38,359 nucleotides of DNA from positions 1 to 38,359 of the forward strand of contig JAJZIM010000027.1 in the NCBI GenBank assembly GCA_021810565.1. The letters run 5' to 3'. Every line of letters starts with the position of its first letter. The stretch's first letter is position 1. Shown here one piece after another: positions 3,775 through 26,138 of this stretch. This DNA is from Bacillota bacterium (GTDB lineage: Bacteria; Bacillota; Sulfobacillia; JAJZIM01). A program made the position numbers and the translations under genes. The notes under the pieces are model-generated. The model was not told the origin of the DNA. It was given only the letters and a program-made list of their open reading frames with translations, and did no database searches.

Positions 3775-5541
3775 ATGTACGTGAGAAAGGTCCGCATAGA
3801 CCAATTTAGATTATTTAAACGCCCACTTGAATTCTCTCTCGGAAGGCGTATCAATGTTATTATAGGACCAAATGATTCAGGAAACACGAGTATCTTGTTG
3901 GCAATTAACGGCATATTAAGAACTATGTCTGAGAGTGATATTAATGGGGCACGCTGGACAACAACGCATCTCGGAATTCCGAACAGGCCACAAAACCAAA
4001 AGCAAGAGCAGTTGCCTAATTTAGGAACAATATACTTGGACGTGGAACTTAGTGACAGAGAACTTCATACTGAGAACAACAATGAGTGGATGGGATTATA
4101 TAATGATCATAACAAGAACATGGTTCCTTTGGTAGTCTACCTAAATACCCTATAAGACCTTAACAACCCTACTTATAAGCCACAAGTGCCCTTAGACCGC
4201 AAAGAGTTTTCGAGGCGCTTGCATTCTCTTGAATCAGCAGTTGAGGGATTTAAGGCAACTCGTGGGCATATTGATCGGTATGCAAACGCAATTTCCAAAC
4301 TCAAAGTGTATTCTCCATTCATACCTGCCCTTAGAGTCACAGAATATCGCGATGTTAGTTCCAGCATGGACCATGCAGCGGCTATTGCGGCAAATTTGAG
4401 CGAAACTCCGCAGCAACTGATGCACTACATTCAATCAATGACGCAAGACAATGATAGGCGTCAAAGGGAATATAAGCCTTTTCTTAAGGATATGCAGGTA
4501 TTATTTCCAGGCATAGAAGCAATTGCCGTGCGCACCGCTATCAGCCCACCGAAGGATATATTTATCGACAGGAGATCTGGTCGCAGTATTCCTTTATCTA
4601 ACTGCGGTGCAGGGGTTGCCAACACATTGTATATCATAGGGCGCTTGATGCAACTCGAAAGACAAGACCTGAAAGAAAACATCGTTGTGTGCTTTGATGA
4701 ACCAGAAAGTGACCTCCATCCAGCGCTCCGAAAACGGCTAATGCAATATATTGCCACGATATCGTGTCGTTACGACAATATTCAATGGATCATTGCTACC
4801 CACTCGCCCTTTATCTTATCGTCCCTTGGTAAGGACGATGCAGTAGTGGTTTTGGATTATGATGAAAACACAATGTCATCAAACGCACGGAATATTGATG
4901 TTTGCAAGACCAATGATGCCTTGGCCGCTATAGGAGTGGAAGTACACGAACTCTTGTCCTCAAAGGCAGCCATATTTACTGAGGGTGCTATGGACACCGT
5001 GTTTTACAAATTGGCTCTTCAAAAAATTGCCGAAAAGGATGCCTTTATTAGGCGGTTATTACCTGACGTTTTATTGCTTCCGCTTACTGGCGGTGGCATA
5101 TTGAAATATATGCCTCCAGAAGAACTAGTTAGCCTCCATCCTAACATTGCCATTGTTTTGGATAGCGAAATTAGTGGTGTTCACAATGCAGCCGACTCAG
5201 AAGCAGCTATGCGTAAAGAGTATGCGGCAAAATGTAGTGACTGTGGACTGTCTTGCTTTATAGATAAGGAGCACCGCGCACTAGAAAATATTTACCCGGC
5301 GTCGGCGCTCGCGAGGGTGTGCGGGATAAATGCTGGGGATATTCTTCGCTGGCCGCCATATGGATCTACGAAGGAAATCATGGCTTTATTAAGTTCTGCT
5401 GGATGTACGGCTGTTCAGTCGGTGCATACGGTTCAATTTGCTCAGTTAATTGGGGGTAACTTAAATGTAGATGAGGCTAGGAGTATTTATGTTGTTGGCA
5501 AATTGACCGCATGGCTAAAAGAAAGGTGCCGACATAACTAG
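3775..5541 (+). pseudogene. OLD-family ATPase/TOPRIM nuclease, interrupted by in-frame TAA
   Basis: One frame runs from the ATG at 3775 to the stop at 5541, broken only by TAA at 4153-4155; the upstream (126 aa) and downstream parts are in the same frame. The N-terminus is an ABC/SMC-like ATPase start (YVRKVRIDQFRLF). Its P-loop reads GPNDSGNTS, with AAC (Asn, 3883-3885) where Walker A needs Lys. After the stop come a signature-like segment (LSNCGAGVANTLYI), Walker B (VVCFDEPESDLHP) and the switch His (IIATHSPFIL). Then follow a TOPRIM domain with EGAMD and VLDSE. OLD/GajA-type nucleases act in phage defence. The GTG at 4186 could restart translation, but the product would lack the P-loop. 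Both lesions argue for decay. GC is far below the neighbours, indicating transfer. Confidence 0.82.
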
Positions 5542-5595: not shown

Positions 5596-6354
5596 TCACA
5601 GGCCTGGTTCGTGTTCCCAGTCCACCTCGCTCGGACGGTAGGCTGCCTGACTTGCCACCCGTGGCCTCCGTCCGCGGGCGTGGCGCAACCGAGGGTCCGG
5701 CCAGTCGCCCTGGATAGCCTTCACCAGCAGCGCCGCCGGATCAGCAGCAGTGCGGTGGGGAAGGTATTCGAGCTGCCGCGTGACGACTTCCCCGGGGTAC
5801 TCAGCAGCCAGCCGCTTAGCCACCGGGGCGTCCACCCCCGCGTCCACCATGGCTTGGGCGAGGGAGGTGGCAGCAGCAGCATCCGGTTCCGGCTCTTTCG
5901 AAGTGCGGGAATCTATCCTTGCTGCTGCTTCCCCTTTGTCTAATTTAACTTCGTCTATGTTAGGCGGTATTTTCTCCCGTTCTAGAACGGGAGGATTTCC
6001 CGTTCTAGAACGGGACTTTTTCCCGTTCTGGGCCGGCTCTAAGCGTGACTTCCCGAGAGGCAGCAAGTGGTAGATGTTCGTCAAACCCCGGCCTCGACGC
6101 TTGGCGGACAGGAGTTTCGCTGCGTACAGTTCCTGGAGGTACATCCGTAGCGTCTTTTCGGAGACCCCCATGAGTTCGCATAAACGCTCCTGGCCAGGCC
6201 ATGCTTGTGCCTTCTGCCACGCGAAGTCCATCAGGATCGCATAGAGGAGCCTGGCACCGGCGGACAGGGTGGCCGCGAGGAGCACAGATCGAGGGAACGA
6301 CACGAACCTGTGTTGCAGCGCAGGATCATCAATTAGCAGCGTTCGGTCATCCAT
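5596..6354 (-). CDS. Plasmid-type replication initiator, winged-helix
   Basis: The ATG at 6354 is 7 bases from GGAGG; a GTG at 6357 is too close to it. The 252-aa protein has an N-terminal winged-helix region (residues about 30-105: LLYAILMDFAW, then LCELMGVSEKTLRMYL and LYAAKLLSAKRRGRG). A proline- and charge-rich linker follows, then a C-terminal domain ending near LVKAIQGDWPDP. This architecture matches firmicute plasmid and ICE replication initiators with a DnaD/RepA_N-like layout. The linker is encoded by three 23-bp iterons, described separately, as expected if the origin lies in the gene. It is the last gene of the minus-strand train and converges on the OLD-type pseudogene. Confidence 0.72.
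   Translation of the reverse strand: MDDRTLLIDDPALQHRFVSFPRSVLLAATLSAGARLLYAILMDFAWQKAQAWPGQERLCELMGVSEKTLRMYLQELYAAKLLSAKRRGRGLTNIYHLLPLGKSRLEPAQNGKKSRSRTGNPPVLEREKIPPNIDEVKLDKGEAAARIDSRTSKEPEPDAAAATSLAQAMVDAGVDAPVAKRLAAEYPGEVVTRQLEYLPHRTAADPAALLVKAIQGDWPDPRLRHARGRRPRVASQAAYRPSEVDWEHEPGL
5976..6044. repeat. Three 23-bp iterons inside the rep gene (candidate origin)
   Basis: Three direct repeats start at 5976, 5999 and 6022, an exact 23-bp period. The first two contain the perfect palindrome CCCGTTCTAGAACGGG (5976-5991 and 5999-6014). The third keeps the left half, CCCGTTCT, and then diverges to GGGCCGGC. They fall in the linker between the DNA-binding and C-terminal domains of the rep gene. 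In RepA_N-type plasmids the origin is known to lie as repeats within the central part of rep, so I infer a replication origin or autoregulatory site. Confidence 0.65.
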
Positions 6355-6377
6355 CACACAACCTCCCTTCCGGTGCT

Positions 6378-6635
6378 CTATCCCACCCCAAAGTCCCTTA
6401 GCAGGGTCCCCAAGCTTGACGCATCAGTCCCCTCCCGGCCTACCCCACACGAGGGGCCGCGGCCCTGGCTCAGCAGTTGGTCCACCTTCGCCATCAGGTC
6501 CACGTACCCGCCCGGCAGCAGGTAGTGCCGCAGCGCACGGCGCACCATCTCGCCCCGCTGGCCAGGTGGCATCGCGGCCAGCACCTTGGCTAAATCCGAG
6601 TCCACGGCCTCGTTTACCTTCACGGTTATGGTCAC
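6378..6635 (-). CDS. Small ParR/ribbon-helix-helix-like DNA-binding protein
   Basis: This 85-aa protein begins at a GTG (6635) with GGAGG nine bases upstream. The N-terminus TITVKVNEAVDSDLAKVLAA, followed by a helix-rich GQRGEMVRRALRHYLL segment, fits a ribbon-helix-helix fold. A glycine-rich tail follows. Its start codon touches the first of six GGTATTAC repeats, and the repeat overlaps its Shine-Dalgarno spacer, so binding there would repress translation or transcription. With the actin-like ATPase gene just upstream, it is the best candidate for the ParR-type adaptor that links centromere DNA to ParM filaments. A ParD-type antitoxin is the alternative, but no toxin gene is adjacent. Confidence 0.62.
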   Translation of the reverse strand: MTITVKVNEAVDSDLAKVLAAMPPGQRGEMVRRALRHYLLPGGYVDLMAKVDQLLSQGRGPSCGVGREGTDASSLGTLLRDFGVG

Positions 6636-6868
6636 GGTATTACCCCTCCAGACCGCTCCCAGAGCGGTTTTCCCGCCTATACGGAGCGTTCCAGTAATAC
6701 CGCTGTCGGCCTTGGAGCCGGGGCGGTATTACCTTTGCCAACGAAACTGCCCCAAACCCGCACAGCACAAGGGCCGGAGCAGTATTACCGTCCTGGCCCT
6801 TGCGGTATTACTTGGCGCTGCCAAACAGCCCACGAGCCCTGTTCCCATACGGCTTCCTTCGGTATTAC
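6635..6868. repeat. Six CGGTATTAC repeats, candidate parC centromere
   Basis: CGGTATTAC occurs at 6635-6643, 6724-6732, 6803-6811 and 6860-6868. A one-mismatch copy (CAGTATTAC) is at 6780-6788, and an inverted copy (GTAATACCG) is at 6694-6702. Start-to-start distances are 59, 30, 56, 23 and 57 bp. The sites fill the only sizeable gap in this part of the operon, between the ParM operon and the small DNA-binding gene. The end copies overlap the start region of one gene and the stop codon of the other. The layout resembles centromere iterons of type II (ParM) partition loci, which also serve as operators. Confidence 0.7.
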
Positions 6869-7068
6869 GCCTCCCGCCGGCTCCGTTCGATCAAGGACAG
6901 ACAGGCACCCACCGCTTCCACCAGGCGGGCCAGGTCGCGGCGCAGGGTCGATGCCTCCTCGGGAGCGTTTGCCGCGCAGGTCCACAGGCTCTGATGCGCC
7001 TCGTTGAGGTGGCATTCCAAATAGGCCAGGGTGTCTCGGCCCATGGCGGTCAGTTCTTCGGCTAGCAT
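6865..7068 (-). CDS. Small helical protein coupled to parM
   Basis: A 67-aa protein starts at the ATG at 7068, which overlaps the parM stop in ATGCTAG, so translation is probably coupled; a longer in-frame start upstream is less likely. The sequence (LAEELTAMGRDTLAYLECHL, then TLRRDLARLVEAVGACLSLIE) is almost all amphipathic helix, without a recognised domain. Its stop codon lies inside the last centromere repeat. Position in the partition operon suggests an accessory segregation role, but this is inference. Confidence 0.6.
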   Translation of the reverse strand: MLAEELTAMGRDTLAYLECHLNEAHQSLWTCAANAPEEASTLRRDLARLVEAVGACLSLIERSRREA

Positions 7069-8012
7069 CCCAGCATCCGCAGGAAGCCCAGGGCGTTGGC
7101 CCACATCGGCTCGGGCACCACCCGGTGGGGTGCCTGCCCTATGCGCAAGCGCGGGGCCAGCTCCTGCCCGCCACCGCCGGCCAGCAGCACGGTGCGCAGC
7201 TTCGGCACCATGTCCCCCATGCGGACATGCACCGTGCGGGCAATCTCGTCCGTCAGGCCGGCCAGGGGAGCGTCACGGTAGGGGGTCAGATCCACCTCGC
7301 GCCCGTGCGCCACCACCGTGGCACCGGCCAGTTCGGCCTCCCGGAAGGATACCCCGGTGTCGGCCTCCAGGCCCCGGGCCGTCGCCAGGTGCACGTCATG
7401 GATACCCTGCTCCACCGTGCCGGCCAGGTCCGCCAGCCCATGCGGCGCGCCGTCGCGGTCCACCTCCACCACCAGCCAGTCGGTGGTGCGGTATCCCACG
7501 TCCACCACCAGGTGATACCCCGGCTCACCGATGGCCCCCGCCTGGAGCGCGTGCACCGCCGCACCCACCCCCTGCGGGCATACCACCACGCGCTCGCAGG
7601 CTATACTTGCCTCCCGGCCGGCGACCCGGACGCTGGCCTGCCGCCCCCAAAGCGCCTGCCGCAGCGCCTCGCGCTGCCGCCCAAACCAGGACAGGGGCAG
7701 CCCCACGGCAAGTTCCAGGGGCGCCTGCGCGTCCAGCATGGCCGTTGCCGCCAGCACCAGGGCCAGGGTGGCCGGGTCGGCCGCCTTGTCCTGGGTCCAG
7801 TTGTGCGTGGCCAGCCGGCTGGCCGCCTCGCCCATCAGGTACTTCTCTTCCCGACCGGTCTCCCGCACCACCACCCAATGCACGCCGTTCCCCAGGGGGC
7901 CTAGGTCCAGGCCAGCGGGTTCAGGCGCCAGAAGCGCCGGGAACATCTCCCGGCGCCCGTCGCTTGCCACCGCCTTGACCCAGCCGTGCCCCACATCCAC
8001 CGCTACTCTCAC
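7062..8012 (-). CDS. parM: ParM/StbA-like actin-family segregation ATPase
   Basis: The GTG at 8012 has AGGAGG nine bases upstream; the product is 316 aa. The N-terminus RVAVDVGHGWVKAV is the phosphate-1 motif of actin-like ATPases (DxGxG). The middle contains the second phosphate loop, LVVDVGYRTTDWLVVE, and the C-terminal LRTVLLAGGGGQ matches the adenosine motif. Size and motif order fit plasmid-type ParM/Alp proteins rather than MreB or FtsA. It would polymerise with ATP and push plasmid copies apart through an adaptor bound to centromere DNA. The candidate adaptor and centromere lie just downstream. It shows the element has, or had, a stable extrachromosomal phase. Confidence 0.85.
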   Translation of the reverse strand: MRVAVDVGHGWVKAVASDGRREMFPALLAPEPAGLDLGPLGNGVHWVVVRETGREEKYLMGEAASRLATHNWTQDKAADPATLALVLAATAMLDAQAPLELAVGLPLSWFGRQREALRQALWGRQASVRVAGREASIACERVVVCPQGVGAAVHALQAGAIGEPGYHLVVDVGYRTTDWLVVEVDRDGAPHGLADLAGTVEQGIHDVHLATARGLEADTGVSFREAELAGATVVAHGREVDLTPYRDAPLAGLTDEIARTVHVRMGDMVPKLRTVLLAGGGGQELAPRLRIGQAPHRVVPEPMWANALGFLRMLGC

Positions 8013-8034: not shown

Positions 8035-8262
8035 TCAGCGCGTGCGGGGAATCCCCGAACGTTCCTCCAGCCGCGCCACCCGCCGCTCCAGCTCCTCGCT
8101 GCCCCGGGCCATCATGGCGGCCAGCAGTTGCCGCACTTCTGGGCTCGTCTCCAGGGCAGCCACCATCTCGCGTATGTTCCACTGCACCACCACGCCGCCG
8201 CGCTCCTCGGCCTTGCGCCCCCGCTCCCGGTCGGCGCGGCCGACGGGCTGTCTGCTGCGCAT
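8035..8262 (-). CDS. Small coiled-coil protein upstream of parM
   Basis: A 75-aa product begins at the ATG at 8262, eight bases after GAGGTG; upstream in-frame starts lack a site. The N-terminal third is basic (RSRQPVGRADRERGRKAEER). The rest forms two helices, ending in a charged heptad-like segment (EELERRVARLEERSG). No family is recognised. It sits 22 bp before parM on the same strand and may be a regulator or partner of the partition system. Confidence 0.6.
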   Translation of the reverse strand: MRSRQPVGRADRERGRKAEERGGVVVQWNIREMVAALETSPEVRQLLAAMMARGSEELERRVARLEERSGIPRTR

Positions 8263-8281
8263 TTCAACACCACCTCGCTTC

Positions 8282-9346
8282 TCAAACTCCAAGGAGCTTC
8301 CCCGGGGCCACTCCATCAGTCGTCACCGCGTCCACCCGCCAGCCCAGAGCCCTGGTGCGCGTCAGGACCACGGTGAACGTGGCCGGCGCACCGGACATGA
8401 GCGGCTTGCCCCCGACACCCAGCACCTCCAGGTCGGCCTGGACGGTGGCGGTGGCTCCGCGTACCCCCTCGTGCGTGAGCCGGATGGTGCCCTTGGTGAC
8501 CGTAGCCTCCGAGACGCCCCGGAGGAGCGGGAACGACCTGGCCGCCCAGCCGCTGTAGTCGGCGGGCTTCCCCGGATAGTCCAGCAGGGCCACCAACGTG
8601 CGGGCATGTCCTCCCGCCAGGAGGCGCACCGCTGTGGCGGCCGTGACTGCCGAACTGTTGGGGTTTTGCCACGCGGCGGACTTGGCCGTGGCCGTGCCTG
8701 CGCCAGCTGCCGCGGTCGGCGGCAGCTTGCCTTCCGGGGACAGGGGCTCGGCGGCCGGCTTGGCAAGCACCGTCACGGTGGTCTTCGGCTTGGTCTTGTG
8801 CCGTTGGGGCTTGGCCTTGGCAGCCGCCGCGTGGCGCACGGGCAGATGCAGGTGCAGCTGCCCGCTGCAGTACGCCAGGGCGCCTCCGCCGGCCAGAAGG
8901 GCCACGCCCAGGGCCACGGCCACCCACCGCAGAGCCTTCCGCCCCCTCCGGGGCGGCTTGGCCCCCAGGGCGGGGGCGCCCCCCACTTCCCCGTGGTGCC
9001 ACCTGGCGGCATCGGCGTAGGTGGCCCGCCGGGCCAGCACCTCCTTCAGTCGCGCCGTCTCCGGGGCTATGTCGTACACCCCCAGGCTGACCACCGCTGC
9101 CAGCACCGGGTCCCCGGGCCGGGTATCCGCCGGGTGGCTTACGAGCGCCCGCGCTTGGGGGTGGGCCACCCGGAACCGGCGTAGCTCATCCAGCTTCCCG
9201 GGCTGCCGGAGCATTCCCGCGTCTACCAGCAGCACGTCCACGGCCGCCTGGGTGTTGTCCAGGCCGTCATCAGCCACCACGTGGCCGGCGGTGGCCACTT
9301 GGTCCAGCCAGGGGTGGCCCTGGGGCAGGAGCGTCGTCACCAGCAT
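8282..9346 (-). CDS. Receiver-like domain + TM + periplasmic-type domain, VirB8/TcpC-like?
   Basis: The ATG at 9346 follows GGAGGTG by about ten bases; 354 aa. Residues 1-110 alternate strand and helix, with VDVLLVDAGML and QARALVSHPADTR, like the pseudo-receiver domain of CpaE-type proteins. No clear phosphoryl-acceptor set is seen. A basic stretch (KPPRRGRKALRW) and one transmembrane helix (about 140-162, VAVALGVALLAGGGALAY) follow. Next comes an Ala/Lys/Pro linker and an exported C-terminal domain (about 235-350) with alternating strands (ATATVQADLEVLGV, ATFTVVLTRTRALGWRV). That tail is compatible with the NTF2-like VirB8/TcpC fold of conjugation machines. I infer a T4SS scaffold protein linked to a cytoplasmic sensory-type domain. 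Confidence 0.55.
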   Translation of the reverse strand: MLVTTLLPQGHPWLDQVATAGHVVADDGLDNTQAAVDVLLVDAGMLRQPGKLDELRRFRVAHPQARALVSHPADTRPGDPVLAAVVSLGVYDIAPETARLKEVLARRATYADAARWHHGEVGGAPALGAKPPRRGRKALRWVAVALGVALLAGGGALAYCSGQLHLHLPVRHAAAAKAKPQRHKTKPKTTVTVLAKPAAEPLSPEGKLPPTAAAGAGTATAKSAAWQNPNSSAVTAATAVRLLAGGHARTLVALLDYPGKPADYSGWAARSFPLLRGVSEATVTKGTIRLTHEGVRGATATVQADLEVLGVGGKPLMSGAPATFTVVLTRTRALGWRVDAVTTDGVAPGKLLGV

Positions 9347-17655: not shown

Positions 17656-17976
17656 CTACCGTTCCGCCGCCTCGTCCCTGTGCCGGCCCACGAACTTCAC
17701 CTTCACGGCTTCGACCTGGAGCTTCTCGTGCTCTTGGATGTTCGGATACCCGCGCACCAGGCACAGGCTCCCCTCGTCCAGCTGCCGGGCGACGGCTTCC
17801 GCCGTCCCCCCTTTGGCCGTGACCTGAAAATAGTCCGTGACCTTCTGCCCGCCCCTGGAGAGCCGGTCCACGGCTACCCAGTAGTTGGCCAGCCGCGTAC
17901 CGTTGGGCGCGGTCCACAGCTCCGGCTTGCCCGTGACCCGCCCCACCAGCAGGATCTCGGAATAGGTGCTTGCCAT
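17656..17976 (-). CDS. ssb: Single-stranded DNA-binding protein, copy 1
   Basis: The 106-aa product starts at the ATG at 17976, nine bases after AAGGAGG. An OB-fold is clear: TYSEILLVGRVTGKPEL, then LANYWVAVDR, KVTDYFQVTAKGGTAEAVARQL and GSLCLVRGYPNIQE, as in primary SSBs. It ends in RDEAAER, without the acidic DDDIPF-like tip that recruits repair proteins in host SSB. It is a tandem paralogue of the second copy (same start MASTYSEILLVGR and same AER end). It probably coats transferred single-stranded DNA in the donor or recipient. Confidence 0.9.
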   Translation of the reverse strand: MASTYSEILLVGRVTGKPELWTAPNGTRLANYWVAVDRLSRGGQKVTDYFQVTAKGGTAEAVARQLDEGSLCLVRGYPNIQEHEKLQVEAVKVKFVGRHRDEAAER

Positions 17977-18017
17977 CGGGTTCAGCCTCCTTCGTCAAAC
18001 GCGGCATCCAAACTTTA

Positions 18018-18042
18018 GGGGGGGAGCACCGCGCTCCCCCCC
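18018..18042. other. Perfect stem-loop between the two ssb genes
   Basis: Ten bases, GGGGGGGAGC (18018-18027), pair perfectly with GCTCCCCCCC (18033-18042) around ACCGC. It lies in the gap between the two ssb copies, without a T run on either strand. A related GGGGAG/CTCCCC inverted repeat occurs downstream of copy 1, near 17628-17647, so the hairpin may have been duplicated with the gene. It could stabilise the ssb mRNA. Confidence 0.55.
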
Positions 18043-18048
18043 TGTTGC

Positions 18049-18393
18049 CTACCGCTCCGCTGCCGCCTCGCTGGTCCGCTGCCGGTCCAGGAACTTCACC
18101 TGGGCGGCCTGGACCTGGAACGTCTCGTGCTTCTGCCCGTCCTTCTCCCACCGCTGGATCTCGGGATGCCCGCGCACCAGGCACAGGCTGCCCTTGTCCA
18201 GGTGCTCCGCCACGGCTTCCGCCGTCTTCCCCCAGGCCGTGGTGCGGAAGAAGTCCGTGACCTTCTGGCCCTCTGCGGGGCGGTCCACCGCCACCGTGAA
18301 ATGGGCCACCTGGGTCCCGTTGGGCGTCGCGCTCAGCTCCGGCTTGTGGGTCAGCCGCCCCACCAGCAGGATCTCCGAATAGGTGCTCGCCAT
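18049..18393 (-). CDS. ssb: Single-stranded DNA-binding protein, copy 2 (internal start)
   Basis: The ATG at 18393 is preceded by GAGGAGG with a nine-base spacer, a full-strength start, although the surrounding frame is open for 135 codons upstream. The 114-aa product is an OB-fold SSB (TYSEILLVGRLTHKPEL, KVTDFFRTTAWGKTAEAVAEHL, GSLCLVRGHPEI) ending in EAAAER without an acidic tip. It is closer to ordinary SSBs than copy 1 (KTAEAVAEHL, FFRTTAWG). I infer it is made as a free protein, whether or not the longer fusion is also made. Confidence 0.85.
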   Translation of the reverse strand: MASTYSEILLVGRLTHKPELSATPNGTQVAHFTVAVDRPAEGQKVTDFFRTTAWGKTAEAVAEHLDKGSLCLVRGHPEIQRWEKDGQKHETFQVQAAQVKFLDRQRTSEAAAER

Positions 18394-18798
18394 CGTGTCC
18401 AGCCTCCTCGCTATGCTTTTGGGCCCCTCGCGAATTGGGATGAAACGGGCCGGCAGAGCCACCCCGGGCTCCGTCCCGATGTGTCCGTCCTCGAACGCAA
18501 GCCGCCACAGCGGCCCCTCCTGGACGGCCATTACTGACAGTCCTGTGATGCTATCCTTATGGGTGGGCGTGAACACCTGCTCCCTGGTGCGAACGTGCTG
18601 ATCGGGCACGCAGGACTCATAAAGCCTGACGAAATCCCGCAGGTCGATCCCAGGCCGCAGGCACCGCGCCTTGACGAAATGGTTCCAGGCCAGCACGGGC
18701 TCAACGCCAGGATGTTCGGCCTTTATCCTCTCCGCCAACTCCCGGTTCGACAGCTCCGCATCCGATACGCGGGCGCAGATTGTCACTTTGCCCTCCAT
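18049..18798 (-). CDS. Unknown N-terminal domain in frame with SSB (249-aa fusion)
   Basis: From an ATG at 18798, after GGAGG, the frame runs without a stop through the SSB start at 18393 to the same end. Residues 1-135 (VTICARVSDAELSNRELAER, then a LAWNHFVKARCLRP region and a strand-rich SITGLSVMAVQEGPLWRLAF segment) match no family I recognise. The joint RRLDT-MASTYS is encoded by the SSB's own ribosome site. Either a true fusion is made along with free SSB from the internal start, or an ancestral stop was lost. Both products would share the C-terminal OB-fold. Confidence 0.65.
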   Translation of the reverse strand: MEGKVTICARVSDAELSNRELAERIKAEHPGVEPVLAWNHFVKARCLRPGIDLRDFVRLYESCVPDQHVRTREQVFTPTHKDSITGLSVMAVQEGPLWRLAFEDGHIGTEPGVALPARFIPIREGPKSIARRLDTMASTYSEILLVGRLTHKPELSATPNGTQVAHFTVAVDRPAEGQKVTDFFRTTAWGKTAEAVAEHLDKGSLCLVRGHPEIQRWEKDGQKHETFQVQAAQVKFLDRQRTSEAAAER

Positions 18799-26061: not shown

Positions 26062-26138
26062 TGGTCGGGTGGACAGGATTTGAACCTGCGACCCCAGCGT
26101 CCCGAACGCTGTGCGCTACCAAACTGCGCTACCACCCG
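26062..26138 (-). tRNA. tRNA-Pro (anticodon CGG)
   Basis: The minus strand folds as a cloverleaf of 77 nt with the CCA end encoded. Acceptor CGGGTGG pairs with CCACCCG; the D arm contains AGCGCAGTTTGGTAGCGC; the anticodon stem CAGCG/CGCTG holds the loop TTCGGGA (anticodon CGG); and the T arm is TTCAAAT-containing (GCAGGTTCAAATCCTGT). Discriminator A and CCA follow. It reads CCG codons, abundant in this GC-rich genome. Confidence 0.97.

Follow-up and report, generated by a model that had tools for sequence, protein, structure and literature searches.

In the papers searched on actin-type partition systems, the usual place of parC is upstream of parM, and every ParR characterised up to 2022 bound direct repeats (PMC9426499). 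The ParMRC modules of R1, pSK41 and pCW3 share an actin-like ParM, a small ribbon-helix-helix (RHH) ParR and repeated sites nearby, with a parC made of direct repeats of 10-20 bp located upstream of parM (PMC9426499). The srpMRC module of SXT/R391 is of the ParM type and is carried by an integrating conjugative element, close to the transfer genes; in the part of the source available, srpC is placed upstream of srpM, consists of direct and inverted repeats and is described without a fixed 57-bp pairing (PMC4489591). The chromosomal Cb-cParCMR of Clostridium botulinum departs from this layout in having palindromic repeats and a parC that is not upstream of parM, its three palindromes being located after parR (PMC12270681). 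The closest plasmid ParM matches to the protein considered here (about 40% identity) are those of Sulfobacillus thermotolerans pL15 and pY0017, for which the genome paper names only a StbA family stability protein (PMC6803676).

The locus described here is found in a stretch of 38,359 nucleotides (the window) from a bacterium of the class Sulfobacillia, and its repeats very probably serve as the centromere of an actin-type system for plasmid segregation, carried by a conjugative element. The sites lie between parM and parR and form dispersed near-palindromes paired 56-58 bp apart, in contrast to the parC regions of R1, pSK41 and pCW3; the upstream parC with direct repeats that defines the R1/pSK41 layout is not present. 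pL15 and pY0017 show the same order of ParM, sites and RHH protein, but carry four sites (spacing 58-41-58) rather than six, of the sequence GTGACGGCAC, have no small ORF after parM and encode a relaxase directly downstream. No description of an internal parC or of a fixed 57-bp pairing was found in the open-access papers searched, and it is the internal position and the rigid spacing that set these sites apart from published parC layouts.

On the minus strand the genes are arranged in the order 93-aa ORF, ParM-type ATPase, small ORF, sites, 85-aa RHH-like protein and replication-initiator-like gene. The ParM candidate (7062..8012, minus strand, 316 aa) is an actin-like ATPase of the ParM/Alp family, as expected of a type II system; it matches PF17989 (8e-26), PF21522 (3e-18), PHROG 691 “partition protein” (8e-26) and pCBH ParM (3e-16), and its relatives in the PDB are Ta0583, pCBH ParM and Dh-cParM1. 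The 93-aa ORF upstream of it (8035..8316, minus strand) was assigned to no family. The region upstream of parM shows no repeat excess, and an R1-like upstream parC was therefore rejected.

Between parM and the sites lies a small ORF of 79 aa (6865..7104, minus strand), or 67 aa if read from the ATG at 7068, which overlaps the parM stop codon (ATGCTAG). Its GC content by codon position (0.69/0.50/0.78) is coding-like; family and PHROG profile searches matched it to no known family, and no counterpart was found in the parM-to-RHH gaps of the relatives. The original prediction had placed an actin-like ATPase and a small RHH-like protein on either side of the repeats, with the end copies touching the start and stop of these flanking genes. 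Both proteins are indeed nearby and both end copies do touch a gene, but in the window the small ORF separates the ATPase from the sites: the copy at 6860-6868 includes the stop codon of the 79-aa ORF, while that at 6635-6643 adjoins or overlaps the GTG with which the 85-aa ORF starts. Neither this small ORF nor the regular spacing of the sites had been part of that prediction.

The candidate parC (6636..6869, 234 bp, no strand assigned) consists of six near-palindromic GGTAWTACC sites, proposed from repeat counts and from a geometry common to its relatives. Six copies of the nonamer had been predicted in these 234 bp, a count that holds if one mismatch is allowed: exact CGGTATTAC occurs five times in 6635-6868 (four copies on the plus strand and one on the minus strand, at 6694-6702), and the sixth copy, CAGTATTAC at 6780, differs from it at one position. 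With up to one mismatch, CGGTATTAC is found nine times in the whole window, against 2.3 expected and a maximum of six in 100 shuffles. A count across the genome had been suggested as a check, and the nonamer proves not to be frequent elsewhere; five of the eight exact copies in the 3.18 Mb fall within 6635-6868, and the remaining three are single, each on its own contig. Because each repeat unit is a near-palindrome, the orientation of the copies has little meaning. In its exact form GGTAWTACC occurs at nine places genome-wide, two of them in the site segment. A type II parC is expected to have multiple specific sites beside the partition genes, and the segment holds six such sites, rare elsewhere in the genome.

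The site centres (6640, 6697, 6729, 6785, 6808 and 6865) are spaced 57-32-56-23-57, that is, as three pairs of 57, 56 and 57 bp joined by linkers of 32 and 23 bp. Random placement of six sites would give three such pairs with a P of about 2e-5, an indicative value like the other geometry P values, which involve related loci and mononucleotide shuffles.

The ParR candidate (6378..6635, minus strand, 85 aa) has a C-terminal tail helix, LGTLLRDFGVG, and is probably an RHH-like adaptor, although its single-sequence HMM match to RHH_1 (0.026) is weak and falls under the curated cutoff. Profile matches to the ParR of pSK41 (2q2k, 0.029) and to ParR/StbB of pB171 (2jd3, 0.073) are also weak. The AlphaFold2 model (mean pLDDT 77.5) predicts four helices, at residues 13-21, 26-39, 44-56 and 73-81: an extended N-terminus precedes two RHH-like helices and a third one, after which a flexible linker leads to the helix at the C-terminus. 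No match was returned when the monomer model was used in a structural search, so the RHH assignment rests on the sequence pattern, the predicted order of helices and the weak profile matches. The C-terminal tail is conserved in an alignment of 20 homologues, for instance as LLRDFG, LLRQFGALDD, AMKDFGWDDDDE and LFKNFGAWDDDDE; known ParR proteins contact ParM through their C-terminal tail. One related locus (L052, 7770-8406) has a tandem pair of ParR-like genes whose products share an acidic tail (FGWDDDDE in one, FGAWDDDDE in the other). A type II system is expected to encode a small RHH adaptor in one operon with ParM; the adaptor here has an RHH-like strand-helix-helix order, and the two genes are linked in most of the relatives examined.

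ParM homologues were collected from the class of the window, a genome collection and plasmids, and about two dozen related loci, including pL15 and pY0017, keep the order ParM, sites, RHH protein. The gene order that the original prediction called unusual is thus unusual against published ParMRC systems, but it is the rule within the clade of the window. In the closest relatives about 145-200 bp separate the parM stop from the RHH gene, and most of these gap-bearing loci belong to one family, presumably Sulfobacillaceae, since the same module is found on pL15 and pY0017. Among the more distant ParMs with an assignable downstream gene, most are followed within about 60 bp by a small gene. A quick ParM tree places the window and the gap-bearing loci in one half, together with a few members whose next gene is adjacent (L045-L047 and L118). 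A clear array was not seen in the relatives L050, L107, L109, L115 and L119, and searches of IMG/VR and of a phage collection found no relative.

Across these loci the sequence of the sites differs, while the spacing between paired sites stays at 56-58 bp. The sites read GGTAWTACC in the window, GTGACGGCAC in L052 and L112 as in the two plasmids, GTGACGTCAC in L105 and L094, ATGAYRTCAT in L096, GTGTSACAC in L104 and L106, ATGTCCCCAT in L103, GGTACGAT in L102, GGTGGACTC in L051 and ATGGWCCAT in L101. When repeat-to-repeat distances were counted in 28 loci with no motif chosen, peaks appeared at 57 bp (23 against 1.5 expected) and 41 bp (22 against 2.2), a shuffle-based significance that overstates independence because the loci are homologous. 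Further peaks lie at 99 and 156 bp, and the four distances together correspond to a four-site array, 58-41-58, typical of the relatives. Paired sites are 57.2 +/- 0.85 bp apart (n=25). L051 has three pairs (56-43-56-25-56), and the largest array, in L096 (G124 contig 2, 248,656 bases), has seven clear sites and a degenerate eighth in four pairs, spaced 58-13-58-44-58-24. The linkers, of 11-13, 23-25, 32 and 41-44 bp, approximate whole helical turns (Rayleigh P 0.01, again indicative, for the seven linkers not near 42). The hexamer GCAAGG/CCTTGC also recurs within the arrays of 13 of 23 loci, against 1.9 expected; it may be a second conserved element or merely reflect common descent, and it is kept out of the argument.

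This geometry bears on whether the sites are only an operator, through which the RHH protein would repress parR and which has no role as a centromere. RHH proteins are commonly autoregulators, and the last of the sites adjoins the start of parR; yet the arrays comprise four to eight sites with a spacing held across unrelated motifs, which is more than an operator needs, ParM is always linked to the array, and no match to a sigma-70-type promoter was found in the site region, itself weak evidence. A purely regulatory role is improbable.

The adaptor and its sites also vary together. A T-x-R β-strand (TIRL, TLRI, TVRI or TIRI) accompanies TGA-type sites in eight of eight loci and in none of the 14 others (Fisher 3e-6), although the covariation was noticed first and tested afterwards; the adaptors compared are mostly 23-41% identical. 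Both proteins with an SVRIYF strand (L100 and L113, n=2) are found with TAGGTCGTC sites. Such covariation is the behaviour expected of an RHH β-strand that reads DNA. Together with the ParM family, the RHH-like adaptor and the order kept in relatives, it supports the type II partition locus that was originally predicted.

The gene next to parR raises a different possibility, that the repeats are replication iterons. A replication-initiator-like protein of 253 aa (5596..6357, minus strand), with a RepO/DnaD-like winged helix (HTH_36 2.5e-11; PHROG 270, replication initiation, 1.9e-12), is encoded starting 20 bp downstream of the parR candidate. However, the sequence of the sites tracks the RHH strand, and the iteron reading, which we consider very unlikely, was rejected because the rep gene has palindromic repeats of its own and no homologue of this Rep was detected in relatives that keep the array. 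The repeats within rep, in which a 23-bp palindromic unit, CCCGTTCTAGAACGGG, occurs two and a half times (5975..6029, no strand assigned), are candidate replication iterons or an internal replication origin, distinct from the GGTAWTACC sites.

The window also encodes VirB4, TrbL, SSB, VirD4 and a MobP3 relaxase, and the element is therefore conjugative. A tRNA-Pro(CGG) gene at 26062-26138, its 3' end directed towards the conjugative genes, is a possible integration site of the element; a second att copy of this 3' end was not found in its own assembly, and the ORFs past the gene look chromosomal, judged by reading their sequence. Other features of the window include two adjacent SSB-like genes (17656-18798) whose products are 62% identical, a CRISPR-like array (109-817) at the contig's left end with the repeat GTCTCAATCCCCTTCGATTCGGGGCATGGATTCTGAC and unique spacers, and an AAA ATPase (4186-5541) resembling defence ATPases of the AriA/PtuA/GajA type. 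An upstream ORF at 3775-4155 resembles the N-terminal part of this ATPase, which points to a possible frameshift in the gene.

Inverted repeats on a conjugative element could in principle be an oriT or a site for site-specific recombination. This is extremely unlikely, and was rejected as the main explanation, since the array tracks ParM and ParR, not the relaxase, which in the window is 14 kb away; the array is also retained in L052, L096 and L112, where no relaxase was detected nearby, and no recombinase gene was found next to it. A more serious proposal is that the module serves mainly in conjugation, with ParM and ParR on the array recruiting or activating the relaxosome and coupling protein, and vertical partition being secondary. 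In R1, ParM and ParR stimulate the relaxase and promote plasmid transfer (PMC4949242). Loci of the pL15 type have the order ParM, array, ParR, RHH gene, NikA-like gene (not detected in every locus) and MobP3 relaxase, followed by VirD4 where the sequence reaches; TraD-like and MobC-like genes lie upstream in L096 and L052, and L095 has a TrwC relaxase downstream. Since pL15 also encodes a separate ParA and ParB (NC_025041.1, 5114-6927), the module is not necessarily that plasmid's principal means of partition. In the window, however, the module adjoins the rep gene, at 14 kb from the relaxase, and the arrays go with ParM and ParR, not with a single type of relaxase. It is also common for a conjugative element to have its partition module near transfer genes, as in srpMRC (PMC4489591). 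A shared or main role in conjugation is the leading alternative, less probable than partition. The relaxosome and coupling neighbours in many relatives, the ParAB of pL15 and the transfer role of R1 ParM and ParR are the reasons for which partition is regarded only as the probable main role.

We consider it likely, with good confidence, that the six sites function as parC in a type II ParMRC module carried by a conjugative element and that the 85-aa ParR binds them, a proposal based on sequence comparison. Dimers of the RHH-like ParR would bind the near-palindromic sites, placed in pairs 57 bp (about 5.5 helical turns) apart and joined by linkers near whole turns, and the paired sites would fold into one fixed ParR-DNA assembly. 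The C-terminal tails of this assembly may then take hold of a ParM filament at its end and stabilise it, and the filament would push sister copies apart. Through the site abutting the parR start, ParR could also regulate its own gene.

Whether these loci represent a distinct centromere subtype inside the parM-parR operon, with a conserved geometry but a recognition sequence and RHH strand that diversify freely, is for us an evenly balanced question. The same even weight is given to its proposed layout of two to four pairs, each 5.5 turns apart and joined by near-integral turns. If such a subtype exists, one architecture could be common to many compatible conjugative elements, and the module may serve conjugation as well, adding to the evidence that ties partition to conjugation. 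The folding of ParR and DNA into a filament-capturing complex is known from a few tandem-repeat centromeres. Loci with unlike sequences but equal spacing would offer a natural series in which the role of geometry can be separated from that of sequence, and a ready set from which to derive an RHH specificity code and to explain plasmid compatibility.
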